DNA from: a virus | IMG/VR virus record: IMGVR_UViG_3300044904_000206 | Location: 1-40,597 of that record | DNA: 40,597 nt | Reading direction: 5' to 3' (one strand) | Shown: piece after piece, positions 4,876 through 40,597 of the stretch | Numbering within the stretch: the first letter of the stretch is position 1 | Layout: every line of letters starts with the position of its first letter | Notes under the pieces: model-generated | Database searches by the model: none | The model's input: only the letters and a program-made list of their open reading frames with translations | What the model was told of the DNA's origin: nothing | Made by a program: the position numbers and the translations under genes

Positions 4876-6972
4876 ATGAGCGCCCTGCAAACGTCTGCAA
4901 CCGCTGCCGCCTTTCATGAAGCGGCGCAGGTCTTCCGGCCGCCGCCCAAGCTCACCGTGCTGGAGTGGGCGGAGCGCGAACGTATGCTCTCCTCGGAATC
5001 CTCCTCCATGGTCGGCCATTACCGCTCCGATGTCGCCCCCTACCAGCGCGGCATGCACAACGCCGTCAACATCCCCGGTGTCGAAGAGGTGGTCTTCTTC
5101 ACCGCCGCCCAGATGGGCAAGTCGCTCACCGAGGAAAATATCTTCGGCTACTTCTGCGACCGCGACCCCTGCTCGATGATCTGGATGTGGCCGACCGACC
5201 TGGTCGCCAAGGCCTGGTCGCTCGATACCCTCGATCCGCTCTTGCAGGATACCCCGGCGCTGGCCGAGAAGTTCAGCCGCGGCAGCCGCAAGGCCGCCAG
5301 CGCCACCCTATTCAAGAAGTTCCCCGGCGGTTGGCTGGCGGTCATCGGGGCGAATGCGCCGGCGGGCCTGCGCCGCCGCCGCGCCCGCCTGGTCATCGCC
5401 GACGAGATCGACGGCTATCCCGAGAGCGCCGGCGAGGAGGGCGATCCGATCGGGCTAGTGGGAAGCCGCCAGGAGACCTTCTGGGACCGCCTGCTGATCC
5501 TCGCCTCCACTTGCACCCTCAAGAACGAGAGCCGCATCGAGGCACGCTATCTCATCAGCAATCAGCAGCGCTACTACGTGCCCTGCAAGGATTGCGGCGA
5601 GTTCCAGCTCCTGGCCTGGAAGCGTCTGGTCTATCCCAAAGATGCGCCTCCGACCCGCGACAACACGCACTACGCCTGCGAGTTCTGCGGCTCGGCGCAT
5701 GACGAGCTCGACAAGATGCAGCTCTTGCGCCGCGGCGAGTGGCGCGCCGCTCGCCCGGAGATTACCAAGGTGCAGGGTTTCTGGATTTCCAAGATGTACT
5801 CCCCGTTTCTTTCCTGGGCGCAGATGGTGGAGCGTTACATTAAGGCCTCCGCCCAGCTCCCCGACAACAAGCAGCCGCTCAAGGTCTTCGTCAATCTCGA
5901 TCTGGCCGAGACCTGGGAAGAGCGCGACGAGCTGGTCGACCGCGAGGGCCTGGTCAAGCGCTGCGAAGATTACCACAACGCTGCCATCGTGCAAGTCGAC
6001 GATGCCGGTACGCCCGCTGGGATTGCGGCCGCCGGCCCACTGCCCGATGGCATTGTCCTGCTCACCGCCGGCTGCGACGTGCAGCCCGATCGCATCGAGC
6101 TGGAGCTGGTGGGCTGGGGCCGCGGGGAAGAGAGTTGGTCCTGCGACTGGCGCGTCTTCGAGGGCGACACGGCGCGCCCCGAGGTTTGGGCCCAGCTCGA
6201 CCGCTATCTGGAGCTCGAGTTCCCGCACTTCCGCGGGCCGCGCCTGCCGATCGCCGCCTGCTTTGTCGATTCCGGCTATCACGCCAGCGAGGTTTATGCT
6301 TATACCAAGCAGCGCGCCACACAGCGCGTCTTTGCCTGTAAGGGCAGCTCCATCTTCGGGCACGTTCCGCTGGCCAAGAAGCGGCGCGTCGATCGCGCCA
6401 ATGTCTGGTTATTTGTGGTGGGGGTCTCGCAGATCAAGAAGACGATTTACGAGCGCCTGCGCCTGGAAACGCCGGGACCGCGCTTCATGCACTTCACCCA
6501 CGCCCACAACACCAACGAGTACTTCGCGCAGTTGACCTGCGAGGTGTTGAAAAAAGAATACCGTCACGGCTTTCCGGTGCGCTTCTGGAAAAAGCCGGAC
6601 GGTGCCCGCAACGAGGCGCTCGATCTGCGCGTCTATGCCTATGCAGCCTTCCTGTCGTTGTCGGAGCTGCCAGCCAAGCTGCTGGAGCGCGAGAGCCAGC
6701 GGCTGCACGAGGAAGCGCGCAAGCTCGCCGAGCAGCGCCGCCTCAAATCCGATCCCAACCAGTTGCCCTTATTGCCGGAAGTTGCCGCGTCGATCGATCC
6801 CGCCCCGGCCTCACCGCTGTCGCCTCTCGCTGTCATCCTGGGTGTGCCATCCGGCGACGCAAAGGATCCCGGGACGGCGCCCAGCAGTGAACCGCCCAAA
6901 GTTTTAGAAACGCCGCTGGTGGATCCGCCGCGCTCTGAAGGCCAGCGCACTAGAATTGTCAGGAGATGGTGA
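4876..6972 (+). CDS. terL: Terminase large subunit, lambda gpA family
   Basis: 698 aa. This is the ATP-driven DNA packaging motor and endonuclease. Walker A-like AAQMGKS at 77-83, Walker B LVIADE at 172-177, a four-Cys zinc insert typical of the GpA family (CKDC 237-240, CEFC 268-271), and nuclease-domain acidic residues in GCDVQPDRIE (D401) and FVDSGYH (D465). The tail after about 590 is Pro-rich and less conserved. Membership of the gpA family suggests cos-type packaging. No good Shine-Dalgarno precedes the start. A copy of the dispersed palindrome overlaps codons 4-9. Confidence 0.95.
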   Translation: MSALQTSATAAAFHEAAQVFRPPPKLTVLEWAERERMLSSESSSMVGHYRSDVAPYQRGMHNAVNIPGVEEVVFFTAAQMGKSLTEENIFGYFCDRDPCSMIWMWPTDLVAKAWSLDTLDPLLQDTPALAEKFSRGSRKAASATLFKKFPGGWLAVIGANAPAGLRRRRARLVIADEIDGYPESAGEEGDPIGLVGSRQETFWDRLLILASTCTLKNESRIEARYLISNQQRYYVPCKDCGEFQLLAWKRLVYPKDAPPTRDNTHYACEFCGSAHDELDKMQLLRRGEWRAARPEITKVQGFWISKMYSPFLSWAQMVERYIKASAQLPDNKQPLKVFVNLDLAETWEERDELVDREGLVKRCEDYHNAAIVQVDDAGTPAGIAAAGPLPDGIVLLTAGCDVQPDRIELELVGWGRGEESWSCDWRVFEGDTARPEVWAQLDRYLELEFPHFRGPRLPIAACFVDSGYHASEVYAYTKQRATQRVFACKGSSIFGHVPLAKKRRVDRANVWLFVVGVSQIKKTIYERLRLETPGPRFMHFTHAHNTNEYFAQLTCEVLKKEYRHGFPVRFWKKPDGARNEALDLRVYAYAAFLSLSELPAKLLERESQRLHEEARKLAEQRRLKSDPNQLPLLPEVAASIDPAPASPLSPLAVILGVPSGDAKDPGTAPSSEPPKVLETPLVDPPRSEGQRTRIVRRW
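4885..4900 (+). promoter_or_regulatory. Dispersed palindrome copy at terL start
   Basis: CTGCAAACGTCTGCAA, 14 of 16 matches to the perfect palindrome at 15261-15276. It begins nine bases inside terL and could act as an operator or transcription roadblock at the entry to the packaging genes. Confidence 0.5.
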
Positions 6973-10207: not shown

Positions 10208-12636
10208 TGAACTATGAGCGAGTATTGGCCGCCGTGCTCAATTATCCCTGGGCGATTCTGCCGCAGACTTTGACTGCGATTGCGGAAGTCCTGGCGCGGC
10301 GCGAAGCCGGCGTCCACTTTACCGAGAAAGAGATTGCCGAGGTCATCGGCGCGAAGAAGCTTGATCGCGATCCCTGGCTGGCGGAGTTTTCCGCCGACAA
10401 GGTCTGGCTGGCCCACCGGGGAGATATTACGGCTGCCAGCGGCAACGGTGGCAGCGGCGGTGCGCGCAAGCTCATTGCCGTGCTGCCCGTCTATGGCATC
10501 ATTGGTCCCAAGGCAGCCGAGTTCGAAGATGTTTCGAGCGGCGGTGGCACCGGCATCGACAAGCTGACCGCACAATTCCGCGCCGCGCTCTCGAATCCCG
10601 ATGTCCGCAGCATCGTCTTCGATTTCGACTCTCCCGGCGGCTCGGTCTATGGCGTCGACGAATTGGCCAGTGAAATCTTCAACGCACGCGATCAGAAGCG
10701 GATCGTGGCGCAAATTGCGCCGATGTGCGCCAGCGCTGCTTATTATCTGGCCTCGGCCTGCATGGAAATTGCCTGCATCCCAAGCGGCGAGGTGGGCTCG
10801 ATCGGCGTCTTTGCCGCACACCGGGACATCTCGAAGGCCATGGAGATGCACGGGATTAAAACCACATTGATCTCAGCCGGCAAATACAAAACCGAGGGCA
10901 ATCCTTACGAGCCGCTCGATGATGATGCCCGCGAGTATATGCAAGGCCGTGTCGGCGAGTATTACGACATGTTTATCAAAGCGGTGGCTCGAGGCCGCGA
11001 GGTCAAAGCCGGCGACGTGAAAAACGGCTTTGGCCAGGGGCGCATGGTGAGCGCCTCCGAAGCCAAGAAGCTCGGCATGATTGACCGCGTCGCCACCCTC
11101 GAGGACACGCTCGCCCGTCTCGGTGGCGATAGCGCCAAGATCCTGCCGATAGCCGCAAGCTCAACTTCTCAACATCCGGCGGCGGCACAGGCCGCTGTCG
11201 AGATCACGGCGATAGCCGAACCCACGAAGGAGGACACTATGTCCACCCAAGCAATACTCCCGGCGGCTTCCGCCGAGATTCTCCAGGTGCGCATCGAGCC
11301 GATGGCGGAGATCGCGCGCTGCAACGAGATCATCGCCGTGGCCAAATTGCACGGCATGACCGCCAAAGCCGAAGGCTGGATCAGCACCGGCAAATCCATC
11401 AAGGATGTGCAGGTGGAGATCCTCGGCGATCTGCGCGCCCATGCGCGGCCGTTGCTCGCTCCCGGCAGTGAAACGATCGATGCCGGCAGCTTCCACGATG
11501 AAGCCGACAAGACGCCCGGCTCGATCCGTATCGTCCGCATGGCGCGTTGCCTGGCCTTTGCCAAGCTGCAAGGGGCGCCCGGCAACCGCGATGTGGCCCG
11601 CGAGCATGCGCTGAAAATGGGCGACCGGGTAGTGGCCAGCGCCTTCCAGATGGCCCTGCCACAGGTGGCTTCGACGCTCGCCGGCGGCGGTGCCCTGATC
11701 CCGGAGAACTTCATCCCGGATCTGATCGAGTATTTGCGCCCGGCCGCGGTTTTCCGCTCCCTGGGGCCCTCCGGCTACCCGCTCATCAACGGCAACCTGA
11801 CGCTGCCCAAGTTGAGCCTCGGCGGCTCGGCCAGTTATATCGGCGAGTCCACCCAGCCGGGCGTGCCGGCGAGCAGTGCTGCGTTCGCTCAGGTGAAGGG
11901 CTCGGCTAAGAAGTTGGCGGCCCTGATCCCGATCTCGAACGATCTCATCCGCTATGCCGGTCTCTCGATTGATGCCGGACTGCGCGATGACATGGTGCGG
12001 GCCTTGGCGCAATCCGAAGACACCGCATTCATTCGCGGCATCGGTTCGCAGTATTCGCCGAAGGGCTTGCTCTACCAGGCTCTGGCGGCCAACAAGATGA
12101 ATTCCGGCATCACGCAAGCCACCCTGGCTTCGAATGCCGCCGCGGGACAGACGGGCGCCACGGCGACGATGTATGCCATCTTGGCCGACGTGGCCAAGCT
12201 GGAATTGGCGCTGACCAACGCCAACGTGCGCATGATCCGCCCTGGCATCCTGATGAGCAAGCGCGTGGAGAATTTCCTGAAGTTCCGCGCGATTGACGCC
12301 ATGGGCAATCCGTTCTTCCAGGCGGAAATGGCGCGCGGCACCTTCTGCGGCTACCCGTACAGGGCGACCACGGTCATCCCGAACAACCTGAGTGTGGTCG
12401 GCTCCGCTATCGATTCGGAGATCTACCTGGCCGACTTCGTCGACGTGGTTATCGCCGACGCGCCGACCATCTCCATCGAGGTCTCGATGGAGGCGTCCTG
12501 GGTCGACGGTGGCGGGGTCACGCACAATGCCTTCCAGGAAGATACGACCCTGGTGCGCTTTATTGAAGAGCACGACCTGCTGGTACGTCACCCCGAATCG
12601 GTCGCGGTCCTGCAGGGCGTGGAGTACGGCTCGTAA
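10204..12636 (+). CDS. Prohead protease (S49) fused to HK97-type major capsid protein
   Basis: 810 aa from ATG 10204, overlapping the portal stop. Residues 90-305 are an S49/SppA-like protease of the lambda gpC type: FDSPGGSV, nucleophile Ser177 in MCASAAYYLAS, and the general-base lysine in AGKYKTEGNP (K229 most likely). A linker of about 40 residues follows. From residue 346 (internal ATG 11239, strong AAGGAGG five bases before) a 465-aa capsid protein begins: a helical delta/scaffold-like part, then GGGALIPENFIPDLIEYLRP and the HK97 fold to ...EEHDLLVRHPESVAV. No stop separates the two. Both a fusion and a free capsid protein are probably made. Confidence 0.9.
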   Translation: MMNYERVLAAVLNYPWAILPQTLTAIAEVLARREAGVHFTEKEIAEVIGAKKLDRDPWLAEFSADKVWLAHRGDITAASGNGGSGGARKLIAVLPVYGIIGPKAAEFEDVSSGGGTGIDKLTAQFRAALSNPDVRSIVFDFDSPGGSVYGVDELASEIFNARDQKRIVAQIAPMCASAAYYLASACMEIACIPSGEVGSIGVFAAHRDISKAMEMHGIKTTLISAGKYKTEGNPYEPLDDDAREYMQGRVGEYYDMFIKAVARGREVKAGDVKNGFGQGRMVSASEAKKLGMIDRVATLEDTLARLGGDSAKILPIAASSTSQHPAAAQAAVEITAIAEPTKEDTMSTQAILPAASAEILQVRIEPMAEIARCNEIIAVAKLHGMTAKAEGWISTGKSIKDVQVEILGDLRAHARPLLAPGSETIDAGSFHDEADKTPGSIRIVRMARCLAFAKLQGAPGNRDVAREHALKMGDRVVASAFQMALPQVASTLAGGGALIPENFIPDLIEYLRPAAVFRSLGPSGYPLINGNLTLPKLSLGGSASYIGESTQPGVPASSAAFAQVKGSAKKLAALIPISNDLIRYAGLSIDAGLRDDMVRALAQSEDTAFIRGIGSQYSPKGLLYQALAANKMNSGITQATLASNAAAGQTGATATMYAILADVAKLELALTNANVRMIRPGILMSKRVENFLKFRAIDAMGNPFFQAEMARGTFCGYPYRATTVIPNNLSVVGSAIDSEIYLADFVDVVIADAPTISIEVSMEASWVDGGGVTHNAFQEDTTLVRFIEEHDLLVRHPESVAVLQGVEYGS
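11227..11241 (+). promoter_or_regulatory. Internal Shine-Dalgarno and start for free major capsid protein
   Basis: AAGGAGG at 11227-11233, spacing five, then ATG 11239 in frame with the long ORF. This is among the strongest ribosome sites in the genome and lies exactly where capsid homology begins, so it probably drives bulk capsid production. Confidence 0.75.
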
Positions 12637-32140: not shown

Positions 32141-33310
32141 ATGGACGAGCCCACCCAGCATACGCTTGGGCATGTTGCCTGTTCTGCCTGCGAACGCATG
32201 GGACAGGCCCGCATGCACGGTTCCGCTCTTGCGGAGTTCCTCTTTCCGCAAGCCGCCGCACTCTGGCTGCGCGAGCGGCACGACATCGCGCCCAGCACCC
32301 GCAAGCACTACCAGGATTACATCGGCTGGCTGGGCCGCTTCTTTCGCCTGCTGCGCCTGCGCGAAATTACTCTCGGCCACATCATCACCTACCAGATCTC
32401 GCGCCGCGAGGCGATCCGCGGTTCGCGCCGTCACCAGGCCGGCCGTCGCGGCGTGGAGGGCCAGGGCGAGCGCCCGGAATCGGACGGTGCCTCGCGCATC
32501 AACCATGAGCTGAGCTGTCTCGGCCAGATCCTGCAGCAGGCCGGGCTGTGGGAAGCCCTCCGCCGCTTCTACCGGCCGCTGCCGCTGCCGCGCCACGGCC
32601 CCGGCATTGCCCTGACCCCGGACGAGGAAACGCATTTCTTCCAGGTGGCGCGGTCGCGGCCGCGCTGGCGCGTGGCCTTTTGCTGCGAGCTGCTCTCGCG
32701 CAATACCACCGCGGGGCCTGGCGAGATCCTGCATCTGCGGCTGATGGATGTCGAACTTGACACCGCGGCCGGCTCATTCATCCACATCGAAGAGGGCCTC
32801 AAGAACGAATTCCGCCGCCGGCCGGTGCCGCTCAACGCGGACGCGCTCAAAGTGGTGCGCTGGCTGCTCGGGCGCGCCCATGCCCTGGGCGCCCGCGAGC
32901 CAGAGCACTACCTGCTGCCGCATCGCGCCCGGCGCCGCAGGCAAGGAGCCGACCCGGCGCGCCCGATGGGAAGCTGGAAGCGCGCCCATGAGTCCATCTG
33001 CCGGGTCGCCGGCAAGAAGTTCCCGCGCCTGGCGCGGCTGCGGCCCTACGACTTCCGCCACACGGCCGCCACCGACATGCTCGAGGACCCGGCGATCGCG
33101 TATGCCACGATCGAGCATATGATGGGCCACCGGCTCAGCTCCAACACCAAACGCAAATATGATCACCTGCGCAACACGGCGCTGCAGGTCGCCGCCGACT
33201 CGCTCAACCGCGACCATGCTGGCAGCCTCGAAGAGCCGGAGCGAAAACGACCCCAAAGCGCGCCCGGCGCCGCTTTCGACTTCTTTACCCTGGCGCGCCA
33301 GGGCGGCTGA
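32141..33310 (+). CDS. int: Tyrosine recombinase (phage integrase)
   Basis: 389 aa from ATG 32141 (ATG 32215 also possible). N-terminal SAM-like core-binding domain (about 35-140), catalytic domain (about 160-350). Seen: beta-hairpin lysine K221 in KNEFRRRPVPL, Y303-D-F-R306 in place of H-x-x-R, H330 in MMGH, nucleophile Y340 in KRKYDHL. The first catalytic Arg, normally in the G-x-R-x-x-E box, reads NTTAGPGE, with Gly192 at its place. I recall this form from acidobacterial integrases. It drives insertion at the att site just downstream. Confidence 0.9.
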   Translation: MDEPTQHTLGHVACSACERMGQARMHGSALAEFLFPQAAALWLRERHDIAPSTRKHYQDYIGWLGRFFRLLRLREITLGHIITYQISRREAIRGSRRHQAGRRGVEGQGERPESDGASRINHELSCLGQILQQAGLWEALRRFYRPLPLPRHGPGIALTPDEETHFFQVARSRPRWRVAFCCELLSRNTTAGPGEILHLRLMDVELDTAAGSFIHIEEGLKNEFRRRPVPLNADALKVVRWLLGRAHALGAREPEHYLLPHRARRRRQGADPARPMGSWKRAHESICRVAGKKFPRLARLRPYDFRHTAATDMLEDPAIAYATIEHMMGHRLSSNTKRKYDHLRNTALQVAADSLNRDHAGSLEEPERKRPQSAPGAAFDFFTLARQGG

Positions 33311-33354
33311 TGACGGTCGCGAACCAAGGCGGTAACATAAGTTTACGATTTTAC

Positions 33355-33384
33355 TTGACGCGAGCAGAATACATGATCCAGAAT
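33355..33384 (+). promoter_or_regulatory. Possible promoter for the ParB-like/accessory operon
   Basis: TTGACG, 18-base spacer, CAGAAT, in an AT-rich pocket after int. The leader to the ParB-like start would be about 220 bases and contain the tRNA-like segment. Confidence 0.35.
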
Positions 33385-33484
33385 TGCGATCGTTTAATCC
33401 TTTCGTACTAAGCAGGTCCGCGCACAGTACATCGGCTCGCCGCCGCGGAACAGAGCCAGGGCTCACCGGGACCCTTTTGCAGGC

Positions 33485-33511
33485 GCTGGATAGAGCATCT
33501 GCCTTCTAAGC
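33485..33511 (+). other. Candidate attP core: tRNA-Arg(TCT) fragment
   Basis: These 27 bases read like the D-loop-to-anticodon-loop part of a bacterial tRNA-Arg(TCT) (GGATAGAGCATCTGCC, then TTCTAAGC), but the acceptor, full D-stem and T-arm are missing. They match the complete minus-strand tRNA at 37610-37634 at 23 of 25 positions. Next to an integrase, such a fragment is usually the crossover core shared with a host tRNA gene. Confidence 0.6.
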
Positions 33512-33612
33512 CCACGCTCTGGGCGGCGGGGAAAAGTCGTAAGGGCTGCAGGAATGCTGCAAGAGCATCGGCCCAGGCGCGGACCTCTAAAAAGTTTAAG
33601 GAGCGTTCGCCC

Positions 33613-35697
33613 ATGGAAACCACCCCGCAATCCCCGCTGGCTCCGCAGCCGGACTCATCAGCGGAAACCGTTTCTTCCACTTCCAAACCCCGAAAAAACA
33701 AAACGTCGGCCGCCGCTGCCGATCCGGGCCCCGCGAGTGCGACGATCCCCGCTCCATTTCTTGACGCTGCTCTGGCAGCCAAGGAACGCGTCACCGAATG
33801 GCCTGCAGACTTTCGCCTCATTCCTACCGCACAGATCGTCCCCAGCAAAACCAACCCGCGCAAAAACTTCGACGGCCCGGAGATGGATGAGCTGGTCGAG
33901 AGTGTCCGCCAGCATCGGCAATTTGGCGGCGTCCTGGTTCCGGTCTTGGTGCGGCCGAGGCCGCATGTTTACACGCAGGGGGATGGCCCATCCTGCGTTT
34001 TTGACGATGCGCGGCCGGGCTCCGAGGAAAGGGTCTTTGAATTGGTCGCCGGCGAGCGCCGCTGGAGGGCCGCTCAAGCTGTCGGATTGGAAGTTATTCC
34101 CGCCATGGTGCGCGAGTTGACGGACGAGGAGGCACTCGAAATCCAGCTCATTGAGAACCTGCAGCGCAAGGATATCTCCGCGCTGGAGGAGGCGGCGGGC
34201 TATGTGCAGCTCGTCGATGCCATGAACGCGGTGCAGCACAACCAGCCGGGCAGGCATTTGACGCGGCAGGAAATCATCGAGCAGATCGCCCAGAAGATCG
34301 GCAAGAGCGCGCGTTATGTCTACGCCCGCATGAAACTCGACACCCTGATCCCGGAAGTCAAGCAGGCGCTCGCCGCCGGCCGCATCGAGCCCAGCCACGC
34401 CGATCTGCTGGTGCGCCTCGATGGCAAGCGGCAACTGAAGTTCCTGCGAGAGGACGTGTTCGAATATACAGCTGAAGATGCTCACCCCGGCGAAGATAAG
34501 ACCCTGCCGCACGGTCCGGCGGTGAGCGTACGCGATCTGGTGCAGCGCATCGAGTACGATTCGCCGGGGCTCAATAAAGCGCCCTGGAAGCTGGACGACG
34601 CCAGGGCGAAGGGTTTGCCGGTATGCTCGAGCTGCGAAAGCAACACCGCAACCCAGGAAGGCAGCGACCCCAAGAAGCCGCGCTGTTTGAATAGCGCCTG
34701 CTTCGAGCAAAAGCGCTCGCAACTGGTAGAGCTCGACCTGACGCACCTCGAAGCGAAGACCGGCAAAAACCGCATCCGCATTCAGAAATCGGAGTACGGC
34801 GCCCCCAAGGGCGTGCTGCCAAAAAGGGATTGGGCTGCGGCAAAACTAGGCTCGTGCGACAACGTGGCACCCGGCGTGGAAATCGAATGTCACTTCCGCG
34901 AGGGCGCCAAAAAAGGTGCCGAAATCTCGGTGCGCGCCGTCTGCACCAACAAGAAGTGCAAGACGCACTTCCCGGCGGCCAGCAAGGATGCCTCGGTTTC
35001 CAAGGAAGCGGCCGCTAAGCGGCTTCATGCAGCGGCGAGAAAGCAGGCCACCGGGCGGGAATGCACGGTGCGCTATGAGTTGGCCGCGAACTTTATCGCC
35101 ACGGTCACAAAGCTGACACCGGAAATTTTGCGAGCAGTGTTGAGGGATCTCGCCTGCCATCGCTGGGCACGGCTGCACGAGGAAGCGCGCAAGCTCGCCG
35201 GCGTCGAGATCGAAGACGTGCTGGCCAACGGTAAGACCGATTCGCCTGAATTTGCCAAAACCATGGCCGCCTGCCTGCTCACGAACGGAATGATCGTGAA
35301 TGAGTGGCTAGGGCCGGAGGCCGGCCGAAAAGAGTTTCATGAGGAGCTGGCCAGCCTGGGTTTTGATCCCGTCAGCGAGCGCCGCAAGATTGAGGCGCGC
35401 CTTAATGCCGCCAAGACGGCGGCGAAAATTGAAAAGGGAAAGTGCCGCTACTGCGGTTGTACCCAGGCTCATGCCTGCGTCCTCGAACTCCCCAAGGGGA
35501 AGAAGGCCGCCGTTACCTGCAAGTGGGCGGATGCCGGCAAGACAGTCTGCTCCAACCGCGAGTGCATGAAGAAAGCCAAAGCCGATCCGGCGGTCATGCC
35601 GGATAAAAAGGTCGCGGCCGCGAAAAAGCCACCTGCTGAGCCGCTCAAGCAGGCAAAACCGGCAAACAAAAAGACAAAGAAAGCGGGCCGCAAATGA
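33613..35697 (+). CDS. Large ParB/Srx-domain protein with zinc motifs
   Basis: 694 aa, AAGGAG upstream. ParB N-terminal domain at about 68-210: IPTAQIVPSKTNPRKNFD, the CTPase/ParB box ELVAGERRWRAAQAVG (144-158) and IQLIENLQRKDISALEE. An HTH region follows (about 215-270). The C-terminal half carries Cys pairs (CSSCES, CTNKKCK) and a final knuckle CRYCGC ... CKWAD ... CSNRECMKKA, then a basic tail. Phage ParB-like proteins act as DNA-binding clamps, silencers or nucleases. No parA is present, so simple plasmid partition is not supported. Confidence 0.85.
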   Translation: METTPQSPLAPQPDSSAETVSSTSKPRKNKTSAAAADPGPASATIPAPFLDAALAAKERVTEWPADFRLIPTAQIVPSKTNPRKNFDGPEMDELVESVRQHRQFGGVLVPVLVRPRPHVYTQGDGPSCVFDDARPGSEERVFELVAGERRWRAAQAVGLEVIPAMVRELTDEEALEIQLIENLQRKDISALEEAAGYVQLVDAMNAVQHNQPGRHLTRQEIIEQIAQKIGKSARYVYARMKLDTLIPEVKQALAAGRIEPSHADLLVRLDGKRQLKFLREDVFEYTAEDAHPGEDKTLPHGPAVSVRDLVQRIEYDSPGLNKAPWKLDDARAKGLPVCSSCESNTATQEGSDPKKPRCLNSACFEQKRSQLVELDLTHLEAKTGKNRIRIQKSEYGAPKGVLPKRDWAAAKLGSCDNVAPGVEIECHFREGAKKGAEISVRAVCTNKKCKTHFPAASKDASVSKEAAAKRLHAAARKQATGRECTVRYELAANFIATVTKLTPEILRAVLRDLACHRWARLHEEARKLAGVEIEDVLANGKTDSPEFAKTMAACLLTNGMIVNEWLGPEAGRKEFHEELASLGFDPVSERRKIEARLNAAKTAAKIEKGKCRYCGCTQAHACVLELPKGKKAAVTCKWADAGKTVCSNRECMKKAKADPAVMPDKKVAAAKKPPAEPLKQAKPANKKTKKAGRK

Positions 35698-35963
35698 CGG
35701 CGCTGCTCTGCGCTTCTGAACCGCCGCGGCCGCGCTACGGCGACCCGCATCTGGAATCCCTGCGCGTTGGCCAGCATGCGGGCTGCCTGATTGTTCTTGG
35801 CGAGTGCGTCGTGGGCTTGCGCGATCCCTTTGCCGAGTACCTGCAGGCGCGGGCGGATCCGCGCTTGCTGGAGTTTGTCGGGCAGAAGGCCTCCGAGATC
35901 ATGGACTTCCTGCGCGAGCTGGAAAGGCCGGTGCTGCCGCCCGCCAAAGGCGGTGTGCAATGA
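35694..35963 (+). CDS. Small hypothetical protein (89 aa)
   Basis: ATGA overlap with the ParB-like gene and with the next gene. Acidic helical C-terminus (DPRLLEFVGQKASEIMDFLR). Not recognised. The double coupling indicates translation within the accessory operon. Confidence 0.55.
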   Translation: MTALLCASEPPRPRYGDPHLESLRVGQHAGCLIVLGECVVGLRDPFAEYLQARADPRLLEFVGQKASEIMDFLRELERPVLPPAKGGVQ

Positions 35964-36163
35964 AACTGAGCAATAAGCCCCGCCACTTTGCCCCGAAAAA
36001 CACCAAGATTGTAGGCATGAATTCCAATTGTCCCGGTCACAAGTCGCTGGGCGGCATAAAAGTGTTCGAATCCGAGGGTAATCTGCTTGATTATTTGCTC
36101 ACCCTCTTTGGGATCTTCCGAAAGAAAGACCAACTCAAGCAGCCAAAAGGAGCCAACTCATGA
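35960..36163 (+). CDS. Small hypothetical protein (67 aa)
   Basis: ATGA overlaps at both ends. Basic N-terminus (KLSNKPRHFAPKNTKIVG), a single hydrophobic patch (LLDYLLTLFGIF), basic tail. Lower GC than its neighbours. Not recognised. Confidence 0.55.
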   Translation: MKLSNKPRHFAPKNTKIVGMNSNCPGHKSLGGIKVFESEGNLLDYLLTLFGIFRKKDQLKQPKGANS

Positions 36164-36735
36164 TCCCGGAACGGGCTCGCCGGCTGGCTGATTTTCTCTA
36201 CGACGCGACGGTGCTGGCGCGCGAGCGCGGCCTCAGTTACTTCGAGGGCCGCGTCGCCATGCTGGCCGCCGCCGAGCTGATGGCGGTGGCGCCGCATGTC
36301 ACCGGCATCGGCGAGGAAAAATACGACGCCCTCGCCCTGGCGATCATCGAGCGCGCCGCCCGCAACCTGAAGCACTTCCCGCGGATCGTCTGCCTCTGCG
36401 GCTCGCCCCGGCATGCGGCGGAGATGCAGCAGGCGTACTTCCTGGAAACCATGGCCGGCAAAATCGTGCTCGCCCCGGTCTGCCAGCCGCTCGATATCAC
36501 CAGGGACGCAGTGATTACGCTGGAGGAGCTGCAGCAACGCAAGATCGAGCTCGCCGAGGAGGTCCTGGTAGTCGATGCCGGCGGTGACCTGGGCGATTCG
36601 ACGATTCGCGAAGTCGAGCATGCGGTGAAACTTGGCAGGCCGGTGCGCTACTGGTCGCGCGGCGAGGTGGGCCACTGCGCCACCGCGCCACGGCAGGCCG
36701 CCGCTCTAGCCTGCGGCGCGGGCGGTGTGCAATGA
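36160..36735 (+). CDS. Nucleoside 2-deoxyribosyltransferase-like protein
   Basis: 191 aa. Residues 76-170 follow a phage family with a Rossmann-like fold: RIVCLCGSPRHAAEMQQAY, ETMAGKIVLAPVC, the block LQQRKIELAEEVLVVDAGGD, then GDSTIREVEHAVKLGRPVRY. The acidic and Ser positions of the nucleotide-binding loop are kept. It may act on modified nucleosides or sense nucleotides. Residues 1-70 form a helical extension not usual for the family. Confidence 0.65.
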   Translation: MIPERARRLADFLYDATVLARERGLSYFEGRVAMLAAAELMAVAPHVTGIGEEKYDALALAIIERAARNLKHFPRIVCLCGSPRHAAEMQQAYFLETMAGKIVLAPVCQPLDITRDAVITLEELQQRKIELAEEVLVVDAGGDLGDSTIREVEHAVKLGRPVRYWSRGEVGHCATAPRQAAALACGAGGVQ

Positions 36736-37709
36736 AGGAAGAGCTCCCTGAAGTGAAACGAATCATGGATTCCCTCGCGCGCCGGCTTGAGGAAATTACA
36801 AAGCGGTATGAGCTGTCGGTTCAGGAACGGATGTCATCGCTCATGATCGCCCGAGCGGCCCTTCGGACCCTCCACAACCAAGAGCTCGGTGGGCGCCCAC
36901 CCGCAATACCGAGCTCTCCCGCCAATTCTGCTGCCGTAGATCCTACTCGGAAAGGAGGTGGCGGAGAACTGCCAGAGCGATGGGCTTTGCGCTTGGAACA
37001 AATCTCGGGGGAGAATGAGCCGGGCGCAGGTCTCATGTTTACCGCGGCCGATGCGATCCAGGCGCATGGCCTGGGCGTGGCGCTGGCGCGGCCGCTCCGC
37101 GAACCCAAGGAGGCATGCCGTGCAATTTCTGATCGAGATACCCGACGAGGTGATCCGCGCTGCCTACGATCACGACCACGCGGAGCAGGCGCGGGTGGAG
37201 ATCGAAGAGGCGTTGTGCGTAACCTACTTCGATGCAATCAGCGTCAAGGTGCTGCTAGGAGGCGTGTCATGGCCATAGAGTTTCTGGCATTGGTGCTCTT
37301 GACGTTTGCGCTGCTCTCGCTGATTCGCTTTTTGTGCCGGCGTTCGCGCCGCCAGGGCGAGCGCGCATCGCGCGAAGCCTTCGCCGGTCTGCGGGCGGAG
37401 GAACCACGGCGTGCCGCCATCGAGATTGCGGAAGCGGCGGAGCGCGGTTTTGCCCTGGGCGTGAGTGAGGCCGCCAACCTGTGCGGCGAAGCGCTCTTTC
37501 CGGATTTCGGCAGCCACAAGGTCTGCCTGATGGCCAAGGGTCACAACAGGGAGTACGTGGTGCTGGCCGTGGCTGGCGGGAGCGGCAGGACTCGAACCTG
37601 CGGCCCTTTGCTTAGAAGGCAAATGCTCTGTCCACCTGAGCTACGCTCCCCTTTGCTCCAGCGCGCCAAGCAACCGGATCATTCTAGCACTGCGGGAGGC
37701 ACGGAATGA
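36732..37709 (+). CDS. Open frame of 325 codons, possibly two genes merged
   Basis: The start is coupled to the previous stop, so translation from 36732 is likely. Residues 1-55 are helical (VKRIMDSLARRLEEITKRYEL) and residues to about 130 look coding. From 37120 to 37268 the sequence is better read in another frame (next entry). From 37269 the same frame encodes a separate membrane protein with its own start. Either a stop was lost and two genes fused, or the first product ends by frameshift. Function unknown. Confidence 0.4.
   Translation: MKEELPEVKRIMDSLARRLEEITKRYELSVQERMSSLMIARAALRTLHNQELGGRPPAIPSSPANSAAVDPTRKGGGGELPERWALRLEQISGENEPGAGLMFTAADAIQAHGLGVALARPLREPKEACRAISDRDTRRGDPRCLRSRPRGAGAGGDRRGVVRNLLRCNQRQGAARRRVMAIEFLALVLLTFALLSLIRFLCRRSRRQGERASREAFAGLRAEEPRRAAIEIAEAAERGFALGVSEAANLCGEALFPDFGSHKVCLMAKGHNREYVVLAVAGGSGRTRTCGPLLRRQMLCPPELRSPLLQRAKQPDHSSTAGGTE
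37120..37278 (+). CDS. Small acidic protein (52 aa, GTG start)
   Basis: GTG with AAGGAGG six bases upstream. Product QFLIEIPDEVIRAAYDHDHA then an acidic helix: compact, charged and coding-like. Its stop overlaps the ATG at 37269, the spacing style of this genome. It lies inside the 36732 open frame in a different frame. Not recognised. Confidence 0.6.
   Translation: MQFLIEIPDEVIRAAYDHDHAEQARVEIEEALCVTYFDAISVKVLLGGVSWP
37269..37709 (+). CDS. Single-pass membrane protein, tail overprinted on a tRNA
   Basis: ATG with AGGAGG six bases upstream. Membrane segment at residues 3-20 (IEFLALVLLTFALLSLIRF), then a basic and an Ala/Glu-rich helical region. Codons from about 37574 to 37650 are the reverse of a tRNA gene (the familiar SGRTRTCGPLLRRQM artefact), so the natural product probably ended earlier and the present C-terminus was created when the tRNA arrived. 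Function unknown. Confidence 0.55.
   Translation: MAIEFLALVLLTFALLSLIRFLCRRSRRQGERASREAFAGLRAEEPRRAAIEIAEAAERGFALGVSEAANLCGEALFPDFGSHKVCLMAKGHNREYVVLAVAGGSGRTRTCGPLLRRQMLCPPELRSPLLQRAKQPDHSSTAGGTE
37574..37650 (-). tRNA. tRNA-Arg (anticodon TCT)
   Basis: Full cloverleaf on the minus strand: acceptor GGGAGCG/CGCTCCC, D-arm GCTC...GAGC, anticodon stem TTTGC/GCAAA with 7-base loop CTTCTAA (anticodon TCT, reads AGA), 5-base variable loop, T-arm GCAGG-TTCGAGT-CCTGC, discriminator G and an encoded CCA. All stems pair perfectly. AGA is rare in GC-rich coding DNA. The phage copy may help translation or replace a host gene hit by integration. Confidence 0.95.
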
Positions 37710-40027: not shown

Positions 40028-40565
40028 CCAGGCGGTGATTCGCGACCAGGTGCTGCCGAAGGAATTTATCCTGCGGCGCGCGAGCTGGGCGCGCAGCGGC
40101 ATCCGCATTACCGCGGCCACCAAGCGCGTGCTGATGGCGGCGATCGAGGACATCAACAAGTACATGGAACTGCAGGAGACTGGCGGCACCAAGCTCCCCT
40201 ACAAGGACATGCTGGCGGTCCCTCTCTCGGGCGCGCGGCCGACGCTGCGCTCGCTGATCCGCTTTGAGGACTACCCGGCGCAGGTGATGGCGCGCGGCGG
40301 CTTCATCAATAAAGTCGGCAGCACGCTGGTGATGTTCGCGGTGGCCCTTAAGCGCGGCCGCCAGAAAGGGCTGTCGCGGCGGGTCAAGGGCTTTGCCCAG
40401 GCGAAGTGGTCGCGCCAGGTGATTCCGATGTATGCCTTGGTGCCGCGGGCGACGATCCCGGCGCGCTACGGCTTTGTGAAAGCCGTTGGTCAAGTGGTGC
40501 AGGCAAGGTGGCGCGGCAACTTTGAGGCAGCCTTTCAGCAGGCGGTGAGGACAAGCACACGATGA
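39906..40565 (+). CDS. Minor tail protein, gpZ-like
   Basis: 219 aa from ATG 39906 with GGAG upstream. Pattern of lambda Z: an N-terminal helix with YATALSLTRTAQDSQAVIRDQV, a basic middle (KLPYKDMLAVPLSGARP), and a C-terminal YALVPRATIPARYGFVKAV helix leading to the end. Lambda Z helps join the tail to the head. Here the gene is far from the tail module, just before the replication genes on the circle, which is unusual. Assignment is by pattern only. Confidence 0.55.
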   Translation: MAIVNIKIEGMAAVQREFADIAANQIPYATALSLTRTAQDSQAVIRDQVLPKEFILRRASWARSGIRITAATKRVLMAAIEDINKYMELQETGGTKLPYKDMLAVPLSGARPTLRSLIRFEDYPAQVMARGGFINKVGSTLVMFAVALKRGRQKGLSRRVKGFAQAKWSRQVIPMYALVPRATIPARYGFVKAVGQVVQARWRGNFEAAFQQAVRTSTR

Positions 40566-40597
40566 ACGAAATCACGCGCACAATCTCGGTGGATGGG
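40471..40597. repeat. Terminal direct repeat, right copy
   Basis: Exact copy of bases 1-127. Joining the two copies gives one circle of about 40,470 bp and restores an uninterrupted gene order across the junction. Confidence 0.95.
40562..40597 (+). CDS. Start of the small ORF at 92 (duplicate by circularity)
   Basis: The first 12 codons of the 60-aa ORF, repeated because the sequence overlaps itself at the ends. Complete copy at 92-274. Confidence 0.85.
   Translation, partial: MNEITRTISVDG

Follow-up and report, generated by a model that had tools for sequence, protein, structure and literature searches.

In tRNA-dependent lysogeny, which has been described mainly in actinobacteriophages (Guerrero-Bustamante & Hatfull 2024, PMC10865867), a phage integrates into a host tRNA gene that is not rebuilt, and brings along a tRNA of the same isotype; these two features define the mechanism. 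The published examples, i.e. Fionnbharth K4, cluster L, Cain, Mollymur, and Gaia, have common cores of 8-17 bp and target tRNA-Lys(TTT), tRNA-Ile2(CAT), or tRNA-Leu(CAA) (PMC10865867). As further criteria of the mechanism, the core common to attP and attB should be short (about 10 bp), the host tRNA should be essential, and viable lysogens should need the phage tRNA (PMC10865867). Close relatives can differ in whether the target is rebuilt or replaced, as in the pairs Cain/Ximenita and Gaia/Omega; the same paper cites Lj965 of Lactobacillus johnsonii, and the authors ask how far tRNA-dependent lysogeny extends (PMC10865867).

The window analysed here is the whole of the virus record IMGVR_UViG_3300044904_000206 (40,597 nt). 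Its ends are identical over 127 bp (positions 1-127 and 40471-40597), so that the record is circular and represents a complete phage genome in which the att site is intact and unrecombined. The sole tRNA identified in the window by ARAGORN is a complete tRNA-Arg(TCT) with intact arms and an encoded CCA on the minus strand (37574-37650; Infernal/Rfam, 70.8 bits, E = 1.2e-13), which we propose as the replacement for a host tRNA. It lies antisense within the 3' end (residues 102-127) of an ORF of 146 aa with a hydrophobic N-terminal stretch (37269-37709, plus strand). When this tRNA was compared with its own record by BLAST, the single other match was located at 33487-33511 on the plus strand (23/25, E = 2.5e-5). 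An earlier note on this DNA had described a tRNA-Arg(TCT) piece beside the integrase gene, a complete tRNA with the same anticodon elsewhere, and a 23/25 match between them in opposite orientation, all of which were confirmed using ARAGORN, BLAST, and Infernal.

The piece, our proposed attP core (33485-33511, plus strand), extends from the D-loop to the anticodon loop and includes 2 nt of the 3' anticodon stem; the assignment is based on BLAST, on exact matches to tRNA genes, and on the equivalent position in relatives. Over its full 27 bases, the core agrees with the phage tRNA at 24 positions (counted by eye), whereas 26 of the bases (33486-33511) are found exactly in complete tRNA-Arg(TCT) genes on many IMG/VR contigs (at least 120 stretches, on which ARAGORN was run). 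Because the core fits these other genes better than the phage tRNA, it is of separate origin and stems from some tRNA-Arg(TCT) gene that is not the phage's own copy. The two also differ in the anticodon stem (TTTGC/GCAAA in the phage tRNA versus TCTGC in the core) with pairing kept, and the altered stem might make the phage tRNA a poorer substrate for its own integrase.

The core begins 174 bp past the integrase gene, in an intergenic slot (33311-33612) that separates this gene from one for a ParB-like protein (33613-35697, plus strand). The integrase gene (32141-33310, plus strand) points at the slot and encodes a tyrosine integrase of 389 aa (phrog_1 integrase, E = 1.1e-27; PF00589, E = 1e-11; fold matches to Tn1549 Int and Cre). 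Downstream of the core in this slot (33512-33612), a short element, AGAGCATCGGCC at 33562-33573, matches core bases 33492-33503 at 11 of 12 positions, 70 bp downstream of these, and is possibly an extra integrase site; a similar extra copy is present in the relative G039, upstream of its own core. Other repeats in the window are a perfect 31-bp direct repeat, with copies at the end of the terminase gene (6700-6730) and in the ParB-like gene (35170-35200), and, at 1821-1950, densely clustered GTTGGCTAG/CTAGCCAAC units that are repeated and partly inverted relative to each other.

Alignment-based scans of IMG/VR identified 23 relatives of the integrase with 63% to 27% identity. The alignment used in the first productive scan consisted of the window integrase and two hand-written generic rows that set the patterns; a tblastn comparison using the unchanged integrase confirmed its matches. 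Later alignments contained real sequences only, and decoy rows with substituted residues were left out. Single-protein scans of IMG/VR with the integrase and with the ParB-like protein yielded no useful relative, nor did comparison of the integrase with phage and plasmid records, where the phage records contained no close integrase relative. No TerL relative was accompanied by a related integrase, and a scan of genome contigs returned unrelated short matches only. In the tree, the window integrase groups with L226 (63% identity) and then with L227-L229, both groupings being fully supported, opposite a clade of 19. The L226 record is trimmed at the integrase stop codon, so that the closest relative neither confirms nor contradicts our reading of the slot. 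All 24 aligned integrases (window and L226-L249) lack the usual first catalytic Arg, which is replaced by Gly192 in the window and by Ala, Ser, or another residue elsewhere, and Tyr replaces the first His in nearly all of them (Y303xxR306 in the window). K221, R225, R227, R306, H330, Y340, and an N-terminal HxxxHxxCxxC motif are invariant among the 24.

Members of the sister clade carry tRNA anticodon-loop pieces in the equivalent slot. In five of them, L232, L237, L238, L244, and L249, the order integrase gene, tRNA piece, ParB-like gene is conserved, and of these L244 and L237 also have a DUF5131 gene in common with the window. The tRNA pieces of these five records span the anticodon stem to the 3' end and belong to tRNA-Met(CAT) (L232 and L244), tRNA-Thr(CGT) (L237), and tRNA-Lys(TTT) (L238 and L249). 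Three relatives, G031, G037, and G039, are integrated: the tRNA is complete at one end and partial beside the integrase gene, and attL and attR are identical over 50-54 bp, a stretch that starts at the anticodon stem and reaches CCA or extends past it. Taken together, the tRNA pieces in the slot and these integrated elements argue that the slot between the integrase and ParB-like genes is attP, and the anticodon stem-loop is the part common to all cores, including that of the window. Since these relatives supply the 3' half of the tRNA, they rebuild their targets. Outside the att junctions, none of the target-rebuilding relatives contained a complete tRNA whose anticodon matched; G028 and G025 contain tRNAs for Trp and Leu with lower scores. 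Among these records, only the window both lacks a 3' half and has, at a distance from the att junction, a complete tRNA with the matching anticodon.

Several other arrangements were observed in the records surveyed. In L229, the att slot (11212-11251) holds a complete 5' half of a tRNA with a CAT anticodon, ending at the anticodon loop, without a 3' half, and no complete tRNA was found in that record; here the target may be restored by a 5' half that the phage brings. In G007 (L223, 5883-7154), a second, different integrase gene ends 14 bp before a complete tRNA-Lys(TTT), which suggests two elements at one tRNA. L132 and L133 had been considered as proof that the integrase family targets tRNA-Arg(TCT) and were dropped, because closer relatives use other tRNAs, which indicates that target choice varies within the family. 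L133 (IMGVR_UViG_3300011989_000484, 6492-6672) is an AT-rich element with a different integrase, in which a 5' half of tRNA-Arg(TCT) is cut at the anticodon loop and followed, after ~60 bp and with the same orientation, by a complete tRNA-Arg(TCT) adjoining the integrase gene. This arrangement resembles the replacement considered here in its integrated state, in which the new tRNA would be transcribed from the host promoter.

We consider it probable that the phage uses tRNA-dependent lysogeny, in which a broken tRNA-Arg(TCT) target is replaced by its own copy. The tyrosine integrase would recombine the 27-bp core with its counterpart in a host tRNA-Arg(TCT) gene and exchange strands at or close to the anticodon loop. 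Neither junction would rebuild a tRNA, since the 3' half is absent from the phage and its 5' flank does not pair. The phage tRNA-Arg(TCT) would take over the lost decoding of AGA/AGG, and a lysogen would live only if the prophage tRNA is kept and expressed. We infer the host identity, the actual junctions, the single and essential status of the host gene, the viability of lysogens, and the expression of the phage tRNA.

The junctions were simulated with 90 distinct core-containing tRNA-Arg(TCT) genes, each joined to the phage flanks. ARAGORN called a tRNA in 0/90 simulated attL sequences and in 90/90 intact attB controls, and neither these simulations nor Rfam revealed tRNA similarity 3' of 33511, where the relatives hold the 3' half. 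Upstream of the core, at most two of the four D-stem pairs can form in any register, versus 4/4 in intact tRNAs and in L229. The usual feature of tRNA-restoring phages, an attP with the 3' half or the whole 5' half, is thus absent from the window. An attP that provides neither a 3' half nor a pairable 5' half would leave the host gene broken, so that integration should destroy the host tRNA-Arg(TCT) gene. The comparison with integrase relatives supports three points of the earlier note, all of which agree with the published mechanism (PMC10865867): the fragment is an attP core, a host tRNA-Arg(TCT) would be broken by insertion there, and the lost function could be supplied by the phage tRNA. 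Nothing observed favours the internal recombination or inversion that the note also envisaged.

A first alternative accepts the core as attP and the host gene as broken, and assumes that a second AGA-reading host tRNA covers the loss while the phage tRNA serves another purpose, such as resistance to tRNA-cutting defences or help in translation. Phage tRNAs that act against tRNA-degrading defence are known (PMC10865867), and tRNA-Arg(TCT) is frequent in viral contigs (at least 120 IMG/VR stretches). However, AGA and AGG together account for only 40 of the 560 Arg codons in 26 phage genes, and this rarity makes a translation aid a weak motive for the tRNA; furthermore, in the relatives that rebuild their targets, no complete tRNA with the matching anticodon occurs outside the att junctions. 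We therefore regard this explanation as unlikely.

It is more doubtful still that the 5' flank of the phage supplies a usable 5' half, making attR a working tRNA-Arg. This idea draws on L229, a member of the same subclade with a complete 5' half of its CAT tRNA, on a GGGACCC sequence near the acceptor position, and on ARAGORN, which called tRNA-Arg in the simulated attR of 56/90 hosts. However, when the flank was replaced with random flanks from the window, calls ranged from 1 to 83 of 90 (mean, 28.5) and reached at least 56/90 in 9 of 60 draws; ARAGORN also accepts the partial copy on the integrase side of G031 despite the complete copy at the other end. Because random flanks give similar calls, the attR calls are not informative and were dropped as evidence, and attR could still be a crippled tRNA. 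The poor D-stem weighs directly against a working one. The idea that the fragment is a relic, with integration elsewhere and the shared anticodon coincidental, is similarly improbable: although a junction was not observed, short tRNA pieces can outlast a change of target, and the frequency of Arg(TCT) among phage tRNAs makes coincidence possible, the fragment occupies the slot used as att by relatives, includes the anticodon loop at which the identity between their att copies sets in, and still agrees with intact tRNA genes at 26/26 positions.

Returning to replacement by the phage's own tRNA, the homologous integrases of the target-rebuilding relatives make the change from rebuilding to replacing traceable within one clade. 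A further reading, less likely than not, is that the subclade switched the side of the tRNA that it donates: its sisters give the 3' half, L229 gives the whole 5' half, and the window gives neither and carries a complete tRNA instead. If so, a clade that lacks the usual first catalytic arginine would show the steps from target rebuilding to target replacing. A replacement role would also explain, independently of codon usage, why a temperate phage carries a lone tRNA. The only pointers to an acidobacterial host are L226 (IMG 637000001), whose host genome is presumably that of Koribacter versatilis Ellin345, and the similar integrases of acidobacteria. The host is probably a bacterium from a phylum other than that of the actinobacterial hosts, and the candidate thus bears on the reach of tRNA-dependent lysogeny beyond actinobacteriophages.

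In the absence of the first catalytic Arg from its usual place, the window integrase resembles IntCTnDOT and IntDes, and it shares with IntDes the Tyr in place of the first His (Y303xxR306), whereas IntCTnDOT comes from Bacteroides-type conjugative elements and IntDes from Desulfovibrio (PMC8138268). With the tRNA-restoring L232, L237, L238, L244, and L249, the window has in common a homologous integrase, the gene order, and a core in the anticodon stem-loop; these five supply the 3' half and rebuild the tRNA, whereas the window has no 3' half. In Sinorhizobium meliloti (PMC11476347), the core lies centrally within tRNA-Leu(UAG), the gene is inactivated, and the prophage carries the same isoacceptor, an arrangement similar to that of the window; that case differs in its alphaproteobacterial host, its target, and its known integrated state. 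The window fits the actinobacteriophages (PMC10865867) by sequence, but its tRNA-like core of 27 bp extends towards the 5' side and is longer than their 8-17 bp, which speaks against the reading, although the stretch shared with the true attB may differ in length; its probable target is tRNA-Arg(TCT). Like them, it encodes a tyrosine integrase and carries, elsewhere in the genome, a complete tRNA, here with the isotype and anticodon of the proposed target; as in Fionnbharth, this tRNA overlaps the 3' end of an ORF in antisense (PMC10865867). Its proposed attP core matches part of a tRNA, and no rebuilding is predicted. The mechanism has already been described in other phages, to which the present locus likely adds tRNA-Arg(TCT) as a target.
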